A stretch of 26,819 nucleotides of DNA from a virus. Position 1 is the first letter of the stretch. Each line of letters opens with the position of its first letter. Under the pieces are notes generated by a model. It worked only from the letters and a program-made list of their open reading frames with translations. It had not been told where the DNA came from and did no database searches. Below are positions 8,292-26,111 of this stretch, piece by piece. Both the position numbers and the translations under genes were made by a program. Location: positions 1 to 26,819 of IMG/VR virus record IMGVR_UViG_3300021368_001926; one strand, written 5' to 3'.

Positions 8292-8498
8292 ATGGGTTAT
8301 ATCAAAGTCAAAGGACATGACGGTCTCGTAAGAGACGAAAACACAGGTGCCATCATCATTCGAGACAATTCTGCCATAGAAGGTAGAAGGAAATCGAAGC
8401 AGCTAAGTTCCGCGTTGGAAGACATAAATACATTGAAGAATGAAGTCTCTGAAATCAAGTCCCTTCTGCGCGAGTTAATAAAAAATGCCAGCAATTAA
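8292..8498 (+). CDS. Small virion-region protein with C-terminal coiled coil
   Basis: A 68-residue protein starting nine bases after the preceding stop and overlapping the next gene by 14 bases, an arrangement typical of translationally coupled phage genes. The N-terminal half begins GYIKVKGHDGLVRD and contains a Gly/Asp-rich turn region (ENTGAIIIRD). The C-terminal half, from about residue 35, has a hydrophobic heptad-like pattern (LEDINTLKNEVSEIKSLL) that should form a coiled coil. No clear Shine-Dalgarno sequence precedes it, so translation probably depends on the upstream gene. Its position between two structural giants suggests a connector, chaperone or fibre-assembly factor, but this is inference from context. 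I recognise no named family beyond a general resemblance to small conserved proteins of cyanomyoviruses. Confidence 0.75.
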   Translation: MGYIKVKGHDGLVRDENTGAIIIRDNSAIEGRRKSKQLSSALEDINTLKNEVSEIKSLLRELIKNASN

Positions 8499-11400
8499 TG
8501 TAGCAAGAACTGATACCTTTGAACTACAAAGGCAAAAGATTAACCAAATCGGTGATCAAATTTTTAACATTACACAGGGTGGAAGTGATCTATCGACTGG
8601 TAATTTAAAACTTGGTGATGGATCATTAGCAGCTCCATCACTAGCTTTTGTTAATGATGAAAAATTAGGTATCTATAGAGTAGCATCTAATGTTCTTGGA
8701 TTCGCTAGTAACTCTAAGAAGGTATTAGATGTTGAGTTAGAAGGATTAAAATCTTTCAAAGATTTTTCTGTTGTCAGAAATTCTCTGTCAAATAGCAGTA
8801 TCAGTCTTACATCTGGTGGACAGAATTATGATGTAGGATCTTATACTGCAATTCCTATTGTTGGTGGTTCTGGTAGTAATGCTACTGCAGATATTACTGT
8901 AATTGGATTCTCTGGATCAATTACAAATAGTGGAGATGGATATCCTGGTGGAGGATACTTCGATCAAACACTGACTGGTGGAAATGGTAGTGGCACAACT
9001 GCAGATTATGATGTAACCCTTATCCAAGGAACTGTAACAAATCCTGGTAGTGGATATGTAGAAGCAATTTATTCTGATGTTCCACTAACAGGAGGTAATG
9101 GATCTGGAGCAACTGCAGACATTGAAGTAAATGATGTTGGTGAAGTAATTGACTTTGTTATTTCTGCTGAGGGTGATGGTGGATACAACCAGAATGATGT
9201 ACTTTCTGTAAATAATGCCGATCTTGGTGGACAGGGTGCTGGTCTTGCCTTTACTATTACAAATAACCCAGGAACAGTTGAGTCTTTTACAATCACCCAA
9301 TATGGAACAGGGTATCAAGCAGGAGATGTATTAACTATTCCTGGCACAGGTTCTCCTGCATTTGCTTATACTATTGATTCTATTCAACCAGTATCTGCTG
9401 TTAGTATCAACGGCGCAGGTGTTGGTTATAATACAGGAGATGTATTAAGCGTAGACCCAACTGCACTTACTCAACAAATTTCATATACTGTAAAAGTTAT
9501 TGCAACGCAAAAGTTAACTTTTTCAAATACTGTTCCAGATACGAGATTTTCAAAAGGAGATACCCTGAAGGGTATTGATGGTGCAGCAATTGGCACATCA
9601 TTAGGTGCAATTTACACAGGAACTCCTGGACAACAATTCCCCAATGTACAGTTAGATGATGGTTCTGGAACTGGATTAATTCTAGATTTTGAAGTTGATG
9701 GAACTGGTGAACTAACAATTTCAAATACTGATTCAGCAGGTTTCAATTACACTCAGGGACAGCAAATTTCTGTTCCTTCAAGTGATGTTGGTGGTATTAC
9801 AGGTGTTGTAGTAAATGTTGACACTGTTTCTGTTCGTGCTGAAGTTTCTTGCCTAGCAGTGTATTCCACTGGTGGAAATATTGATTACATTGTAATCGAA
9901 GAAGATCCAGATTTGACTGCTGGTGAACTAATTGACCTCGCAACAGGTGGTTCATTAGCAACTGCAGGTACTATCGCAACTCTTGATACTCAAAATCAAT
10001 ATTTGCTAGATGATGGAACGACAGTTGGTCCCAACAATGATCCACAACCAGTTGCTGATACATATCATCCAAACCTAACACTTTACTCTGGAAATACTTA
10101 TCTATTTGATCTTGGAGACAGTTCTGTTTCTGGTCACCCATTTGCGTTGTCAGAAACCCCAGATGGTATTCATACATCATACACACAAAATTCAGTAACA
10201 TTAAATACCAATTCTGCAACAATTACTGTTACAGACACTACAAATATTCTTGTAGGAATGCCAGTAGCAGTTACTGGTGGTACAGGTACACTAGATTCTT
10301 CTACAGTAGTACAAAGTGTTGATAATGCTAATACTATTACTCTATCAGTTGCTCCACTAGTAAATGGAACTGCAAATCTATCGTTTACTGGTTACGAGTA
10401 TACTACTGGTGTTGTAAAAACTGGAAATATCACACTAAAAGTAACTGATACAACACCCAACTTATATTATTATTGTGGGACGCACTCTGGAATGGGTGGC
10501 ACATCTCCAGACTTCGATGTATTGCCATCAGATACCAACAACCCTAAGGTATTTGGTTCTGGTTTCTCATTCACTGCTACAGATATTGATTCGGCAATTG
10601 CAGTTAGTTTAGATGTAGACGCAGGTGTTATTACTGGCAATTCTCTATCTGCAGTTTCTGGACAAGTACAAACTTTTGAAGCTACCGTTTCACTAACAAC
10701 ACCTACTATCAGCACAACAGATATTACATGTGCTACTTTAGGTTCTACAAATACGATTGTAGCAACTGCTGCGAACGGCATGTTTGTAAATGGAAACTTT
10801 ACTGTTGGTTCCAACCTTACTATTACCGATTCAAATGGTAACATAGAAACTAGTGGAGAAATCAAATCTACTGGTTCCTTTAATTCTGATAATAGAGTTA
10901 AGTTACAGGGAGATACTTTATCAGCATTTGCTGGAAACAATATTAATCTCACAGTTACTGGAGAAAATGTTGTTCGTGTAAATGGAACATCTGCACTGGG
11001 TATTCCATCTGGTACAGAACTCGATAAACCAACAACAAACTATAACGGATATATCAGATTCAATACTGATACAACTCAGTATGAAGGTTATAGTGAATCA
11101 ACTAGTTCCTGGTCATCTCTTGGCGGTGTAAGAGACATTGATGGCAACACTTATATTATTGCTGAAGCAACGGTAGGTGCAAATGACAATACACTATACT
11201 TCTATAATGATAATGTAAATACACTACAATTAGGAACTGAGTTCTTAGACTTTAGAAGTGTTAAGAAAATTTCTTCTGCTAGATTAGGACTACCAAATTA
11301 TTCTCTGTGGACACCTGGAGCAGAAACTTCTGTTGGAGACTATATTAAGTTTAGAAATAATCTATACGAAGTAACAGGAATTGTAAACCTAGGTCAACTT

Positions 11401-12555
11401 GCTGGAACTGGACAGGAACCTGTACACACCTCAGGAGTTGTTACAAATGGAGATGCTCAGTTAACATGGTACTCATCTTCTGTGTCTCCTCTTTCGTTTA
11501 CAGAAGTAGAGGAGTTGAGAGTAGCACCAGATAAAGACGCTGCTCTCGTAGTTAACGCATCACTAAAACTAGGTGGAACTAGCAATTTAGATTGGAATAC
11601 AATTTCCACAGTTTCTGAAGACTTGACACTGAGACCAAATGGTAGTCAGAAAGTTGTTATTGATTTGAATACATCACTGGTAATTCCAGTTGGTAATAAT
11701 AACCAGAAAGGAACTCCTGCTCAAGGATCTATTAGATATAATACTGATATCACCCAGTTTGAAGGATACAACGGTGCTCAGTGGTCTTCTCTAGGTGGTG
11801 TTAGAGATGTAGATGGAAATACATTTATTATTCCAGAACCTTCTCCTGGTTTTAATGATAACATTCTGTATTTTTACAACAACAATGTAAATACATTAAA
11901 GTTAACTGAAACCGTTCTAGATTTTACAAATATCGATACAGTTACTACGAGTGGAGGAAATAGTCTCGCTATCAATACACAGATAGTTACTCTAAATTCA
12001 ACCGAAACTACTATCGACAATAGTGATGCTTCTTCTACATTTATTAGCACAACAAAACAATACCTAGATCTAGGTTTATCTTCTGGATTGACAGTCGATC
12101 CCGTACTTAGACTTGATGATCAAGGTGATGTTTTCTTGAATGTTGGATTTGGAACAGGAACTTTCAACGGAGTCAAAATCTTTGACGGGGATTTGAAAGA
12201 ATTTGAACTAGCAGATTATGCTGTGAAGACTGATACTTTTGATTTAACAAAAGGAACAACTAACCAGTCTGCTTCTACATTATACAACAAAAACAACAAT
12301 AAAGGTTGTAAAGTAACTGTCATTTCTAAAAGTGCTTCTGGTAAGAAATCTTTTGCTGAATATTCTGTCATTGATGATGGAACTGACATTTACTATACAG
12401 AAATTGGTTCTATCAATACTAATGGTGTTGATGGATTCACTGCTGCATTTGATTACAATGCAACAGATGAAACAAGAATCACTTTAACATTATCAAATGA
12501 TCATGCTAATGGCGATGTGGTTTCGTTCACCGTAGTAACTCAAACAATTAAGTAA
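8485..12555 (+). CDS. Tail fibre protein with embedded cupredoxin-like domain
   Basis: A 1356-residue beta-rich fibre protein whose start codon lies inside the preceding gene. The N-terminus (NVARTDTFELQRQKINQIG) resembles the attachment segments of cyanophage fibres. Residues about 110-320 hold at least five GxGY-type repeats (GDGYPGG, GSGYVE, GTGYQAG, GVGYNTG). Residues about 520-675 form a cupredoxin-like domain with candidate copper ligands H551, C664, H667 and M670, interrupted by an insert at about 569-636. Residues 840-920 and 1065-1145 are duplicated modules sharing SSLGGVRD and DGNT. Residues about 943-1000 contain a Gly/Thr-rich module with PVHTSG. The C-terminal 100 residues probably form the trimeric tip or foldon. 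It most likely makes a long or short tail fibre. There is no dedicated promoter, so expression should come from the late promoter at 69-76 by read-through. Confidence 0.85.
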   Translation: MPAINVARTDTFELQRQKINQIGDQIFNITQGGSDLSTGNLKLGDGSLAAPSLAFVNDEKLGIYRVASNVLGFASNSKKVLDVELEGLKSFKDFSVVRNSLSNSSISLTSGGQNYDVGSYTAIPIVGGSGSNATADITVIGFSGSITNSGDGYPGGGYFDQTLTGGNGSGTTADYDVTLIQGTVTNPGSGYVEAIYSDVPLTGGNGSGATADIEVNDVGEVIDFVISAEGDGGYNQNDVLSVNNADLGGQGAGLAFTITNNPGTVESFTITQYGTGYQAGDVLTIPGTGSPAFAYTIDSIQPVSAVSINGAGVGYNTGDVLSVDPTALTQQISYTVKVIATQKLTFSNTVPDTRFSKGDTLKGIDGAAIGTSLGAIYTGTPGQQFPNVQLDDGSGTGLILDFEVDGTGELTISNTDSAGFNYTQGQQISVPSSDVGGITGVVVNVDTVSVRAEVSCLAVYSTGGNIDYIVIEEDPDLTAGELIDLATGGSLATAGTIATLDTQNQYLLDDGTTVGPNNDPQPVADTYHPNLTLYSGNTYLFDLGDSSVSGHPFALSETPDGIHTSYTQNSVTLNTNSATITVTDTTNILVGMPVAVTGGTGTLDSSTVVQSVDNANTITLSVAPLVNGTANLSFTGYEYTTGVVKTGNITLKVTDTTPNLYYYCGTHSGMGGTSPDFDVLPSDTNNPKVFGSGFSFTATDIDSAIAVSLDVDAGVITGNSLSAVSGQVQTFEATVSLTTPTISTTDITCATLGSTNTIVATAANGMFVNGNFTVGSNLTITDSNGNIETSGEIKSTGSFNSDNRVKLQGDTLSAFAGNNINLTVTGENVVRVNGTSALGIPSGTELDKPTTNYNGYIRFNTDTTQYEGYSESTSSWSSLGGVRDIDGNTYIIAEATVGANDNTLYFYNDNVNTLQLGTEFLDFRSVKKISSARLGLPNYSLWTPGAETSVGDYIKFRNNLYEVTGIVNLGQLAGTGQEPVHTSGVVTNGDAQLTWYSSSVSPLSFTEVEELRVAPDKDAALVVNASLKLGGTSNLDWNTISTVSEDLTLRPNGSQKVVIDLNTSLVIPVGNNNQKGTPAQGSIRYNTDITQFEGYNGAQWSSLGGVRDVDGNTFIIPEPSPGFNDNILYFYNNNVNTLKLTETVLDFTNIDTVTTSGGNSLAINTQIVTLNSTETTIDNSDASSTFISTTKQYLDLGLSSGLTVDPVLRLDDQGDVFLNVGFGTGTFNGVKIFDGDLKEFELADYAVKTDTFDLTKGTTNQSASTLYNKNNNKGCKVTVISKSASGKKSFAEYSVIDDGTDIYYTEIGSINTNGVDGFTAAFDYNATDETRITLTLSNDHANGDVVSFTVVTQTIK
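8815..9465 (+). repeat. GxGY beta-repeat array in the 1356-residue fibre
   Basis: Within the fibre, roughly residues 111-327, the motif G-[SDTV]-G-Y recurs about every 38-55 residues, each time followed after a few residues by a Gly/Asn-rich turn (for example LTGGNGSGTTAD and LTGGNGSGATAD) and short beta strands. Two adjacent units (about 8935-9015 and 9045-9125) are the most alike, and even their codons are similar. The same motif recurs in the genes at 111-8282 and 13102-23895. These look like stacked beta units that extend a fibre shaft. Confidence 0.6.
10042..10515 (+). other. Cupredoxin-like (type-1 copper) domain inside fibre
   Basis: A domain within the fibre at about residues 520-677. 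A strand with NLTLYSGNTYLFDL leads to GHPFALS (H551). It closes with LYYYCGTHSGMGG, giving C664, H667 and M670 in a C-x2-H-x2-M loop, the spacing found in amicyanin. These four residues match the full type-1 copper ligand set. The H551-C664 gap is 113 residues, but about 68 of these (569-636) form a separate beta module; removing it leaves about 45, close to the 47 of plastocyanin. Copper binding is inferred, not shown; the domain could also be structural or bind another metal. Confidence 0.7.
11002..11910 (+). repeat. Duplicated SSLGGVRD fibre module
   Basis: Two copies of a module of about 75 residues lie at 11002-11233 and 11680-11904. Each runs from an I-P-x-G turn through IRF/YNTDTTQ/ITQ, YEGY/FEGY and a Trp, then SSLGGVRD-[IV]-DGNT-[YF]-II, then NDN-[TI]-LYFYN-[DN]-[ND]-NVNTL. 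Identity is high by eye across the second half. The copies are separated by a segment with a PVHTSG module. This is an internal duplication of a fibre segment. Confidence 0.75.
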
Positions 12556-12556
12556 A

Positions 12557-13057
12557 ATGGCAACTAATTTAAAACAATTTGATTCTCTTGGTGGATTTTC
12601 AGTAAATGAAACCACCGTTGTTGATGAGAATAAAAACATTAAGGATGCTAACACTTTAGAATTAAAAAATAGGTTCTATAGTGATAGTACAATCACTCAT
12701 TATATTTTGCGTGGTTCTAATACCGCCACATTACAACTTGATGATGTTGGAACAAATATCACAATCGATAACTCCACCATCAATTTTATCACAGGAAATT
12801 TTCTTGGAGTAAATCCATCTGGTGTTGTTTACTCTGGTAAAATTGAAAGTACAGTTCTTTGTAATGCGATTGGAAATGTAACAACGCTATCCAGTTTAGA
12901 AACAATCATTAAAGAAGACATTCCAACTTCGGAAAGTTGGGAGATTGTTCCGTTTATGGCGACGAATAGATTTAGTTATGCCACAACCAGATCTGGAACA
13001 ACTCAACTAATTAAATGGATTGTATCAACCCAGGTTGTAAGTATTGCCTGGGCTTGA
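12557..13057 (+). CDS. Cyanophage-type structural protein of unknown function (166 residues)
   Basis: A 166-residue protein that starts one base after the stop of the 1356-residue fibre, so it is almost certainly translationally coupled to it. It begins MATNLKQFDSLGGFSVNET, continues with a short region labelled by NTLELKNRFYSD, and is then beta-rich with many Thr, Asn and Ser. It ends in the hydrophobic segment STQVVSIAWA. The style resembles small virion proteins placed beside fibre genes in cyanomyoviruses. No catalytic motif, membrane segment or signal peptide is seen. It may be a fibre subunit, tip or connector. The gene is followed by a 44-base gap with a possible promoter before the giant fibre. 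Confidence 0.75.
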   Translation: MATNLKQFDSLGGFSVNETTVVDENKNIKDANTLELKNRFYSDSTITHYILRGSNTATLQLDDVGTNITIDNSTINFITGNFLGVNPSGVVYSGKIESTVLCNAIGNVTTLSSLETIIKEDIPTSESWEIVPFMATNRFSYATTRSGTTQLIKWIVSTQVVSIAWA

Positions 13058-23925: not shown

Positions 23926-24450
23926 ATGAGTACCTTAGAAGTTGGAACGCTTATATACGATAGTATAGAAGCCAGCGGTGGTAGTGCCACATCAATACCT
24001 CTCCTCAAAATCAGGATGGGTCCTAATGGAACTAACATGACTAATGGAGGGACTACCTGGACATATAAAAATGTCTTTGATAGTGCTGAAATTAATGTTG
24101 GAAATTGGAGTTTCAACAGCAGTTCTGTTACTGTTCCAGAAAATGGATTATATTATTTGTACTGCAATATGGGGTATTTCGAGAATACTTCACAAGATAC
24201 CTCATATCGCTGGACCGTATTCCATAGATTTGTTATCAATGGAACTGCACAATATGAATCTGCAAGATCAACATATTGTAGAGATTACGCTGGACACCAT
24301 TCGGCATCAACTTCACTAACTACGATGTATTCTTTGAATGCTGGTGATCAAATTAGATTGCAATTCTATCATGGTACAGGATATAATGGAAATGATTGCA
24401 CATTACTAAATATGAGTCACTTTTTAATCTATAAGATGGCGGAGCAATAA
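23926..24450 (+). CDS. C1q-like jelly-roll adhesin 1 (174 residues)
   Basis: The N-terminal tag (STLEVGTLIYDSIEASGG) resembles short fibre-attachment segments. From about residue 45 the sequence has the order of a C1q/TNF-like jelly roll: VFDSAEINVGNWSFN, VTVPENGLYYLYCNMGY, a strand with RFVINGTAQYESAR, SLTTMYSLNAGDQIRLQFYH, and a final strand ending HFLIYKM. The GLYYLY and LNAGDQIRL elements are the usual markers of this fold. It is probably a trimeric receptor-binding tip. Only a weak ribosome binding site (AAAGA) precedes the start codon. It heads a run of three related genes. The fold is assigned from the motif order, and the ligand is unknown. Confidence 0.75.
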   Translation: MSTLEVGTLIYDSIEASGGSATSIPLLKIRMGPNGTNMTNGGTTWTYKNVFDSAEINVGNWSFNSSSVTVPENGLYYLYCNMGYFENTSQDTSYRWTVFHRFVINGTAQYESARSTYCRDYAGHHSASTSLTTMYSLNAGDQIRLQFYHGTGYNGNDCTLLNMSHFLIYKMAEQ

Positions 24451-24451
24451 A

Positions 24452-25003
24452 ATGGCATCTAATTTAACAGTAGGAACAATTAAAGCAACTACTATTCAAC
24501 AGTCTAGTGGTCAGCAAGGAGGTGGAGGTTCTTCTTCTGCTGGGGGATATTTTTTATCCACCCACATGTATAAAACTGCTCTGACTGCAAACAGCAATCC
24601 AAACGATACTAGTGGATTTACTTTAAGAACTGTATTTAATACAAGTCCTCAACTCAATGTTGCTGACAGTGGAAGTTGGAGTAATGATGGTACATATATT
24701 ACAATTCCATCAAGTGGATTGTATATTGTAACTACTAGTATTGCTTATAATAATGCAGCTGCAAGGGATTCTCCCAGACATAGGTATAGAATTAATACTA
24801 CAGGACAATTTGAAGAATCAAGATCTGCTTATATTAGGGTAGGAAGTAGTCATAATCAAGCTAGTACGGAATTAGTATCCGCATATCAACTTACACAAGG
24901 CAATACTCTTGCTCTTGAATTTGGTAGAGCTGGAAATAGCGGAACTAACACTACTATTATTGCTTCATATAGCTACATATCTATATGGAAACTACAAGAC
25001 TAA
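24452..25003 (+). CDS. C1q-like jelly-roll adhesin 2 (183 residues)
   Basis: It starts one base after the preceding stop, with a GGAG ribosome binding site at 24441-24444 inside the upstream gene. The N-terminus (ASNLTVGTIKATTIQQSSG) resembles that of the preceding protein, followed by a Gly/Ser-rich linker (GGGGSSSAGG, about residues 25-35). The C1q-like core follows: TVFNTSPQLNVADSGSWSN, ITIPSSGLYIVTTSIAY, RHRYRINTTGQFEESR, VSAYQLTQGNTLALEFG and a final strand ISIWKLQD. Its core aligns by eye with the preceding protein (SGLY, YRI-N and SAYQL-G steps), so the two are likely diverged tandem paralogues and candidate fibre tips. Confidence 0.75.
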   Translation: MASNLTVGTIKATTIQQSSGQQGGGGSSSAGGYFLSTHMYKTALTANSNPNDTSGFTLRTVFNTSPQLNVADSGSWSNDGTYITIPSSGLYIVTTSIAYNNAAARDSPRHRYRINTTGQFEESRSAYIRVGSSHNQASTELVSAYQLTQGNTLALEFGRAGNSGTNTTIIASYSYISIWKLQD

Positions 25004-25020
25004 TTATTTTGGAGTAAAAG

Positions 25021-25548
25021 ATGCCAGGAACAGGAACATTTAGAATAGGACAAATTCCATTAGGAACTGCTGTAGAAGATTACAGTGGTAATGACATCAA
25101 ACCTGTTGGTGTTGTTTGGGCGCGTGCTGCTAAAATTAGGTTTGGTGATAGCACTAATATTAATCAATCTAGTTACTGCTCTAGTTTTAATTTACAATTT
25201 GATCCTACAGGATTAATTACAAATGTTGCTAGCAGTTCTTTTACTGTTGGTGCGGAAGGTACTTATCAATTATCTTTTCATTGCAGAACTACTGGAGGAG
25301 TTAGAACCAATGCTGGTTTTAGATTTGAATTAAATGGAAATGTGCAACCCGAAAGATTTCTTTCAAATTACTCCAGAGGTGGTGGAGCACAGCAAGGTGG
25401 AACACATAATTTCGGTGGAGATGGAGGAACTCTTCTGTATGAGTTTGGATCTTCCAGCACAATCGTAAGAATTCTTGGTTCTCAGCAAGGAAACAGTGGA
25501 ACTGTAACAGCACTAGACGGAGCAATTACTATTATTAAAATTAGATAA
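25021..25548 (+). CDS. C1q-like jelly-roll adhesin 3 (175 residues)
   Basis: A third small beta protein, with a good GGAG ribosome binding site at 25011-25014. The N-terminus differs (PGTGTFRIGQIPLGTAVED), but the core again follows the jelly-roll order: FNLQFDPTGLITNVASSSFTV, GAEGTYQLSFHCRT, a strand with FRFELNGNVQPERF, a Gly-rich loop (GGGAQQGGTHNFGGDGG, about residues 119-138), and final strands SSTIVRILG and AITIIKI. It is more distant from the other two than they are from each other. Its TAA stop overlaps the next ATG by one base, coupling it to the oxygenase. Likely a virion adhesin; the assignment to C1q-like is less certain than for its neighbours. Confidence 0.65.
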   Translation: MPGTGTFRIGQIPLGTAVEDYSGNDIKPVGVVWARAAKIRFGDSTNINQSSYCSSFNLQFDPTGLITNVASSSFTVGAEGTYQLSFHCRTTGGVRTNAGFRFELNGNVQPERFLSNYSRGGGAQQGGTHNFGGDGGTLLYEFGSSSTIVRILGSQQGNSGTVTALDGAITIIKIR

Positions 25549-26111
25549 TGAACTTGAGTGAATTGAGATCTGATTGTTGGATCATTGATAATTTTTTAAC
25601 AGAATCTGAAATAGAAGAATTAACAAATCACATTCAAAAAATTGAATGGGTTATGTTTGATGATGTTCAGGCATCAAATTTTAAACAACCATCTTCCAAA
25701 GGATTTCATGTTTTGGAAGAAGATTTTGAAATTATAGAAAATAAGTATCTCAGGAAAATATTAGATTTAAATTTTTCAGGGATGCCAAAGATTGAAAAAT
25801 TTGATAGAGTGCTATATAATTGTTTTGAAAAACATGACACTCCTTTACCACACACAGATTCTTTAACAGAAGGTTGTTGGACTTTTATCATATACCCAAA
25901 CACAAAATGGGAACCTGAGTGGGGTGGAGAAACAAAAGTAATGTTTTCTCCCAATAGAATGACTGAAGAAAATATGCAAAGAATGGATTTGGTGTCTCCT
26001 CTTCCTGGAAGATTATTAATCATACCAGGCGATGTTCTACATTCTGGTAGTGGAACTTCGGTTAACACACCGAGATACAGTATGGCATATCAATTTTGGA
26101 ATAATAAATAG
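25548..26111 (+). CDS. 2-oxoglutarate/Fe(II)-dependent oxygenase
   Basis: A 187-residue cytosolic enzyme of the double-stranded beta-helix oxygenase superfamily, which uses Fe(II), O2 and 2-oxoglutarate to hydroxylate a substrate. The iron-binding triad is visible as H102-T-D104 (LPHTDS) and H165 (DVLHSG). R176 in RYS, eleven residues after the distal His, fits the R-x-S site that binds 2-oxoglutarate. The stretch WGGETKV and the pair GRLLIIPGDVLHSG also match the family, and the length is normal. All catalytic residues are intact. The start codon overlaps the stop of the third C1q-like gene (TAATG), so the two are translated together, which hints that a tail protein may be the substrate. That is inference; nucleotide, peptide or metabolite substrates are equally possible. 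Confidence 0.9.
   Translation: MNLSELRSDCWIIDNFLTESEIEELTNHIQKIEWVMFDDVQASNFKQPSSKGFHVLEEDFEIIENKYLRKILDLNFSGMPKIEKFDRVLYNCFEKHDTPLPHTDSLTEGCWTFIIYPNTKWEPEWGGETKVMFSPNRMTEENMQRMDLVSPLPGRLLIIPGDVLHSGSGTSVNTPRYSMAYQFWNNK
26103..26110 (+). promoter_or_regulatory. T4-type late promoter (AATAAATA)
   Basis: An exact NATAAATA match embedded in the last codons of the oxygenase gene and overlapping its TAG stop (26109-26111). Initiation would fall near 26116-26118, about 17 bases before the ATG at 26134. It probably serves the 113-residue gene and the gene after it. Confidence 0.65.

Follow-up and report, generated by a model that had tools for sequence, protein, structure and literature searches.

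In cupredoxins of the amicyanin and plastocyanin type (PF00127), the metal ligands follow the order His-Cys-His-Met, with the first His before one strand and the Cys at the end of another. Amicyanin has a C-x2-H-x2-M ligand loop, and the spacing from the first His to the Cys is 46 residues in plastocyanin and 38 in amicyanin. Tight copper binding is to be expected of a beta-sandwich that carries a Cys-His-His-Met site, and classical cupredoxins serve in electron transfer. In addition, the green cupredoxin AcoP of Acidithiobacillus ferrooxidans, a respiratory electron carrier with an axial Met, possesses a C-x6-H loop that was unreported before, according to its describers, and that is proposed to constrain its green site (PMC4059628). 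In phage fibres, HxH iron sites have been described in T4 gp37 and Alteromonas phage R22Y, and a Trojan Horse receptor proposal concerns the iron of such fibres (PMC11705849). The fibre protein considered here resembles these HxH fibres in having a proposed metal site within a phage tail protein, with a possible meaning in metal-poor seawater (PMC11705849). It differs from them in that no HxH motif occurs in its 1356 residues, which places it outside the HxH iron-binding fibres, and in that the proposed site lies inside one domain and includes a Cys.

The window, which is the whole 26,819-nucleotide stretch of viral DNA that we analysed, has as its closest isolate among the matches listed Synechococcus phage Sf-CH1b (41% of the query aligned, at 91% identity). 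An open reading frame at 8485-12555 (+) encodes the 1356-residue fibre protein that hosts the cupredoxin-like domain. Residues 287-1356 match PHROG 6005 (virion structural protein) with an E-value reported as 0, and this match over most of the protein, together with a common gene neighbourhood, assigns it to that family. In isolate cyanophages the genes are arranged in the same way, the fibre gene following that of a large structural protein and preceding that of a structural protein of about 166 residues, which is encoded at 12557-13057 (+) in the window (PHROG 5449); the exception is S-B43, in which the upstream gene is different. Just 6 His, 4 Cys and 4 Met occur in the whole fibre protein, and the proposed ligands account for four of these 14 residues. 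A cupredoxin-type arrangement is thus not the product of a composition rich in ligand residues. The three large open reading frames of the window hold one C..H..M and one GHP in total.

The preliminary description had claimed a complete type-1 copper ligand set at 10042-10515, a range that corresponds in frame to residues 520-677. Translation of the open reading frame places the four residues where they had been reported, namely His551 (10135-10137), Cys664 (10474-10476), His667 (10483-10485) and Met670 (10492-10494), all on the + strand. The set is therefore a complete His-Cys-His-Met series with an amicyanin-type C-x2-H-x2-M loop, and both its order and its Cys-His and His-Met spacings are those of known type-1 sites. 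Because the motif is part of a large homologous family, it is not a chance occurrence. Profile alignment to relatives without an insert maps the domain to residues 524-690, with a first half at residues 524-565 (10054-10179, +) and a second half bearing the ligand loop at residues 636-690 (10390-10554, +). Unlike amicyanin and plastocyanin, this domain resides within a large virion protein and is interrupted by a 70-residue internal module.

The suggestion that a separable beta module splits the domain is borne out by this alignment and by a hidden Markov model (HMM) of the module. In a profile-profile comparison, the window-led domain alignment matched 28 uninserted sequences at an E-value of 7e-36 with one large gap, which corresponds to residues 566-635 (10180-10389, +). 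These boundaries lie within three residues of the earlier estimate of 569-636 (68 residues). The module HMM found 247 copies in 97 fibre proteins, and 155 of these copies lie outside the cupredoxin-like domain, indicating that the inserted module is a separate unit with free-standing copies in orthologous fibres. With the module removed, the gap between His551 and Cys664 is 42 residues, and naturally uninserted copies most often have 49. The module may serve virion proteins more generally as a structural building block. A profile of the inserted domain gave a weak match over the insert to P22 coat protein (E 0.03), and a profile of the module by itself matched a phage cement protein (E 0.005); both matches are too weak to establish kinship.

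Homology searches and structural models bear on whether the fold is that of a cupredoxin. The window protein has no Pfam match, and Pfam and NCBIfam scans of 11 members from phage loci returned nothing credible, with the phage members tested falling below the PF00127 cut-off. One cellular relative (L224/L336) exceeds the PF00127 Copper-bind cut-off of 21.2 bits with a score of 25.1, which ties the family to copper proteins. Judged by its sequence, the window protein is classed as cupredoxin-like and not as a PF00127 member. Searching the PDB with the single domain sequence yielded chance matches only, and the best cupredoxin for a first profile of 11 sequences was pseudoazurin at an E-value of just 1.3. 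In a PDB profile search, plastocyanins appeared from E 0.07 upward, with immunoglobulins scoring as well or better. With a profile of cellular PF00127 proteins, the ligand loop could be aligned at 85% probability (E 6e-6), in an alignment of just 27 columns. High-confidence AlphaFold2 models are mainly beta for both the inserted form (pLDDT 93, pTM 0.85) and the uninserted form (pLDDT 88, pTM 0.78). For the uninserted model, Foldseek ranked amicyanin top in both probability (0.96) and TM-score (0.54) among the matches listed, at a weak E-value of 0.079, and immunoglobulin folds ranked alongside cupredoxins. The inserted model matched mostly other folds, probably due to the insert, and the cupredoxin AcoP appeared at rank 21. 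In the models, His551 immediately precedes one strand and Cys664 ends another, after which comes the loop with His667 and Met670; this predicted strand order is the cupredoxin arrangement. Both the strand order and the match to amicyanin accord with the expectation of the preliminary description that the four residues would not be far apart in the predicted fold.

Our first survey of ligand conservation was biased by a C..H..M regular expression and by scan patterns that contained the Cys. It was replaced by a set of orthologues fetched with the neighbouring 166-residue gene as bait, so that the proteins were not chosen by their ligands, to which isolates and the first set were added. Removal of near-duplicates left 97 fibre proteins, 92 of them with the inserted copy, and some of the first 76 IMG/VR loci are still included. 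Of the 92 non-redundant inserted copies, 70 have His551, Cys664 and His667 together and 19 have none of them, and three copies retain His551 alone; no other combination of the three occurs. Thus, no inserted copy has Cys664 without both His551 and His667, so that His551 accompanies all 70 copies with the Cys, and loss of Cys664 usually brings loss of His551. Homologues that lose His551 or Cys664 at random had been named as the observation that would count against a metal site. Such random loss is not seen, because the three residues go together. The Cys state changes about 11 times on a tree of the region C-terminal to the domain, with loss of the site repeated in about ten lineages, and His551 follows Cys664 in six of about seven independent Cys-discordant pairs and does the opposite in none (p 0.03). 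When copies with and without Cys664 are compared column by column, Cys664, His667 and His551 differ most, followed by Leu555 and Met670; at many structural positions of the fold, conservation does not differ between the two groups. The loop segments inspected in Cys-less copies contain no His. Loss of the ligands with the fold kept points to a removable site, and this correlated loss of three residues is the strongest evidence that the predicted site is real. Four of the fibre orthologues (L326, L328, L329 and L331) are without the inserted copy. They have instead an intact copy of different spacing at about residues 317-385, to which the only Cys of the protein belongs, and a degenerate copy at about residues 446-525.

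The expectation that all four ligands would be conserved together stands for His551, Cys664 and His667 but fails for the axial Met, which is replaced by Glu in 30 of the 70 intact inserted copies. The replacement follows loop length. All 35 short loops (C-x2-H) have Met, whereas the 35 long loops (C-x5-H or C-x6-H) have Glu in 30 cases and Met in five. The window copy falls in the first of these classes, with a short loop and Met. An axial Glu in some relatives is a further departure from amicyanin and plastocyanin. AcoP resembles the long-loop relatives in its C-x6-H loop, and it resembles the inserted form in its extra internal region (PMC4059628), whereas the window copy is short-looped.

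Many of the orthologues possess a second, uninserted copy of the domain several hundred residues upstream. In complete non-redundant proteins with two copies, both sites are intact in 29, only the inserted site is lost in 15 and only the uninserted site in three, and there is no protein in which both are lost. Complete single-copy proteins (n=42) keep the site in 35 cases and have lost it in seven, which fall in two clades. The contig fragments of these seven site-less fibres hold no other intact copy, and the loss in two single-copy clades indicates that the site is dispensable. Among 16 isolates and the window, the site is kept in all ten single-copy fibres and in the inserted copy of one of the seven two-copy fibres (p 0.0006). 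The larger set gave a smaller contrast (35 kept and seven lost in single-copy fibres, 29 and 15 in two-copy fibres; p 0.085), and a test of copy number against site loss on independent pairs was not significant (median p 0.22). As a trend only, the counts suggest that a fibre usually retains one site.

Relatives of the domain are encoded in 76 IMG/VR loci and 46 phage records, some of them as a form of 80-100 residues without the insert. A profile-based scan of IMG/VR confirmed at least 596 of the 600 stretches listed, with abundant relatives lacking the insert. Phages of Synechococcus, Prochlorococcus, Pelagibacter and Methylophilales carry the domain, and the protein that contains it often bears the annotation tail fibre or virion structural protein. 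Its PHROG matches are to several families of tail, baseplate and structural proteins. Representative genomes in GTDB gave 116 confirmed relatives, largely marine (SAR86, SAR11, Euryarchaeota, Flavobacteriaceae and others); a part of these resemble phage proteins, and several have a start like that of an exported lipoprotein, with the domain near the C-terminus. Two relatives on genome contigs (L224/L336 and L221) are cellular proteins in which the domain follows unrelated regions at the C-terminus. Together with the lipoprotein-like proteins of the SAR86 type and of marine Euryarchaeota, they suggest an unnamed family of putative exported copper-type proteins. The four residues are complete in all 223 uninserted viral and cellular copies that have an intact C-x2-H-x2-M loop and a well-placed first His. 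Copies that appeared to have the Cys without the first His were mostly misaligned second halves of inserted copies, and the genuine cases (L033 and L048/L049/L053) have lost the second His as well. The large proteins of three viral contigs (L048, L049 and L053) contain multiple copies of the domain, of which some are intact and others ligand-less (for example, Tyr/Cys/Tyr), and the pattern of intact and lost sites recurs here in structural proteins other than the window-type fibre.

Taken as sequence evidence, these observations make residues 524-690 probably a cupredoxin-like domain with a real metal site, and the virions would then carry metal. Our preferred account, which we hold to be somewhat likelier than its alternatives combined, joins a cupredoxin-like tail domain of a T4-like cyanophage with a soft-metal site, likely of the type-1-like copper kind, a mobile insert and a structural clamp. 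The domain would form a beta-sandwich in a tail-associated structural protein, in which the His-Cys-His-Met residues would constitute a mononuclear site for a soft metal, most likely copper of the type-1-like kind, and the mobile 70-residue beta module would sit in the loop that joins the first-His strand to the remainder of the domain. Metal bound here could work as a clamp, fastening the loop that follows the Cys strand to the first-His strand, which would raise stability. The fibre is assembled in the cell and then meets seawater; the metal may be acquired during assembly or after release, and the clamp would stabilise this region of the fibre in virions that have left the cell. For the site, a structural role is the likeliest; it suits the data better than catalysis or electron transfer because clean loss has been repeated, often with the second copy intact.

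The same fold could instead hold zinc or iron in a purely structural site, as in other metal-bearing phage fibres. The harder Glu ligand of the long-loop relatives would suit such a metal, and iron is the metal known in fibres (PMC11705849), but the window copy has the classical copper set in amicyanin spacing and a cellular relative exceeds the Copper-bind cut-off, so we regard this alternative as unlikely while taking it seriously. The occurrence of the domain in tail and baseplate families, and in phages of unrelated marine hosts, would fit a role of fibre copper in recognising the host, much as the Trojan Horse proposal has it for iron. We consider this improbable, given that the analysis found no link to a copper receptor, that the domain lies in the middle of the protein and not in a tip region, and that about ten lineages have lost the site.

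Two further readings would do away with the structural metal altogether or give it another task. If the domain were only a scaffold and its ligand residues metal-free remnants of a cellular copper protein, the persistence of ligand-less copies with the fold kept would be expected, but remnants would decay singly, and here three residues that are otherwise invariant in 70 copies disappear together; we give this reading very little weight. Electron transfer or another redox function, in the virion or at the surface of the cell, would accord with the complete ligand set and with what classical cupredoxins do. No partner is seen in the window, however, and the occurrence of both Met and Glu at the axial position would be expected to shift the potential strongly, which makes this the function in which we place the least credence. 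A structural soft-metal clamp, probably holding copper, remains our preferred account.

Metal in the fibres of marine phages has so far been discussed for iron at HxH motifs, and the site proposed here would be of a different and well-understood type. In the literature searched, which was mainly open-access, we found no description of a cupredoxin domain in a phage tail or tail fibre. As far as can be told, the fold and the ligand set are known, and the location in a virion, the insertion of a mobile module within the domain and the Met and Glu loop classes are new. We would give even chances to the broader proposal that marine phages possess a widespread, unnamed copper-binding cupredoxin tail module with two ligand sets tied to loop length, an internal mobile beta module and copper-carrying virions. 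This would place a cupredoxin-type site in virion proteins of abundant ocean phages as well as in proteins of marine microbes. Should copper be confirmed, virions would be among the possible copper ligands of seawater, the site would offer a testable handle on fibre stability and adsorption, and the natural Met and Glu variants with their different loop lengths would provide material on the tuning of cupredoxin sites.

Other genes of the window also merit comment. The best PHROG label for the gene at 25548-26111 (+) is DNA endonuclease V, which looks wrong, as its product exceeds the cut-off for Pfam PF13640 (2OG-Fe(II) oxygenase superfamily). Three small adjoining proteins are encoded at 23926-25548 (+). 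One of them lies above the cut-off of the Pfam TNF family (PF00229) and has a weak C1q match, another has a weak match to BclA_C, and the three look like trimeric tip or adhesin domains that end the structural cluster.
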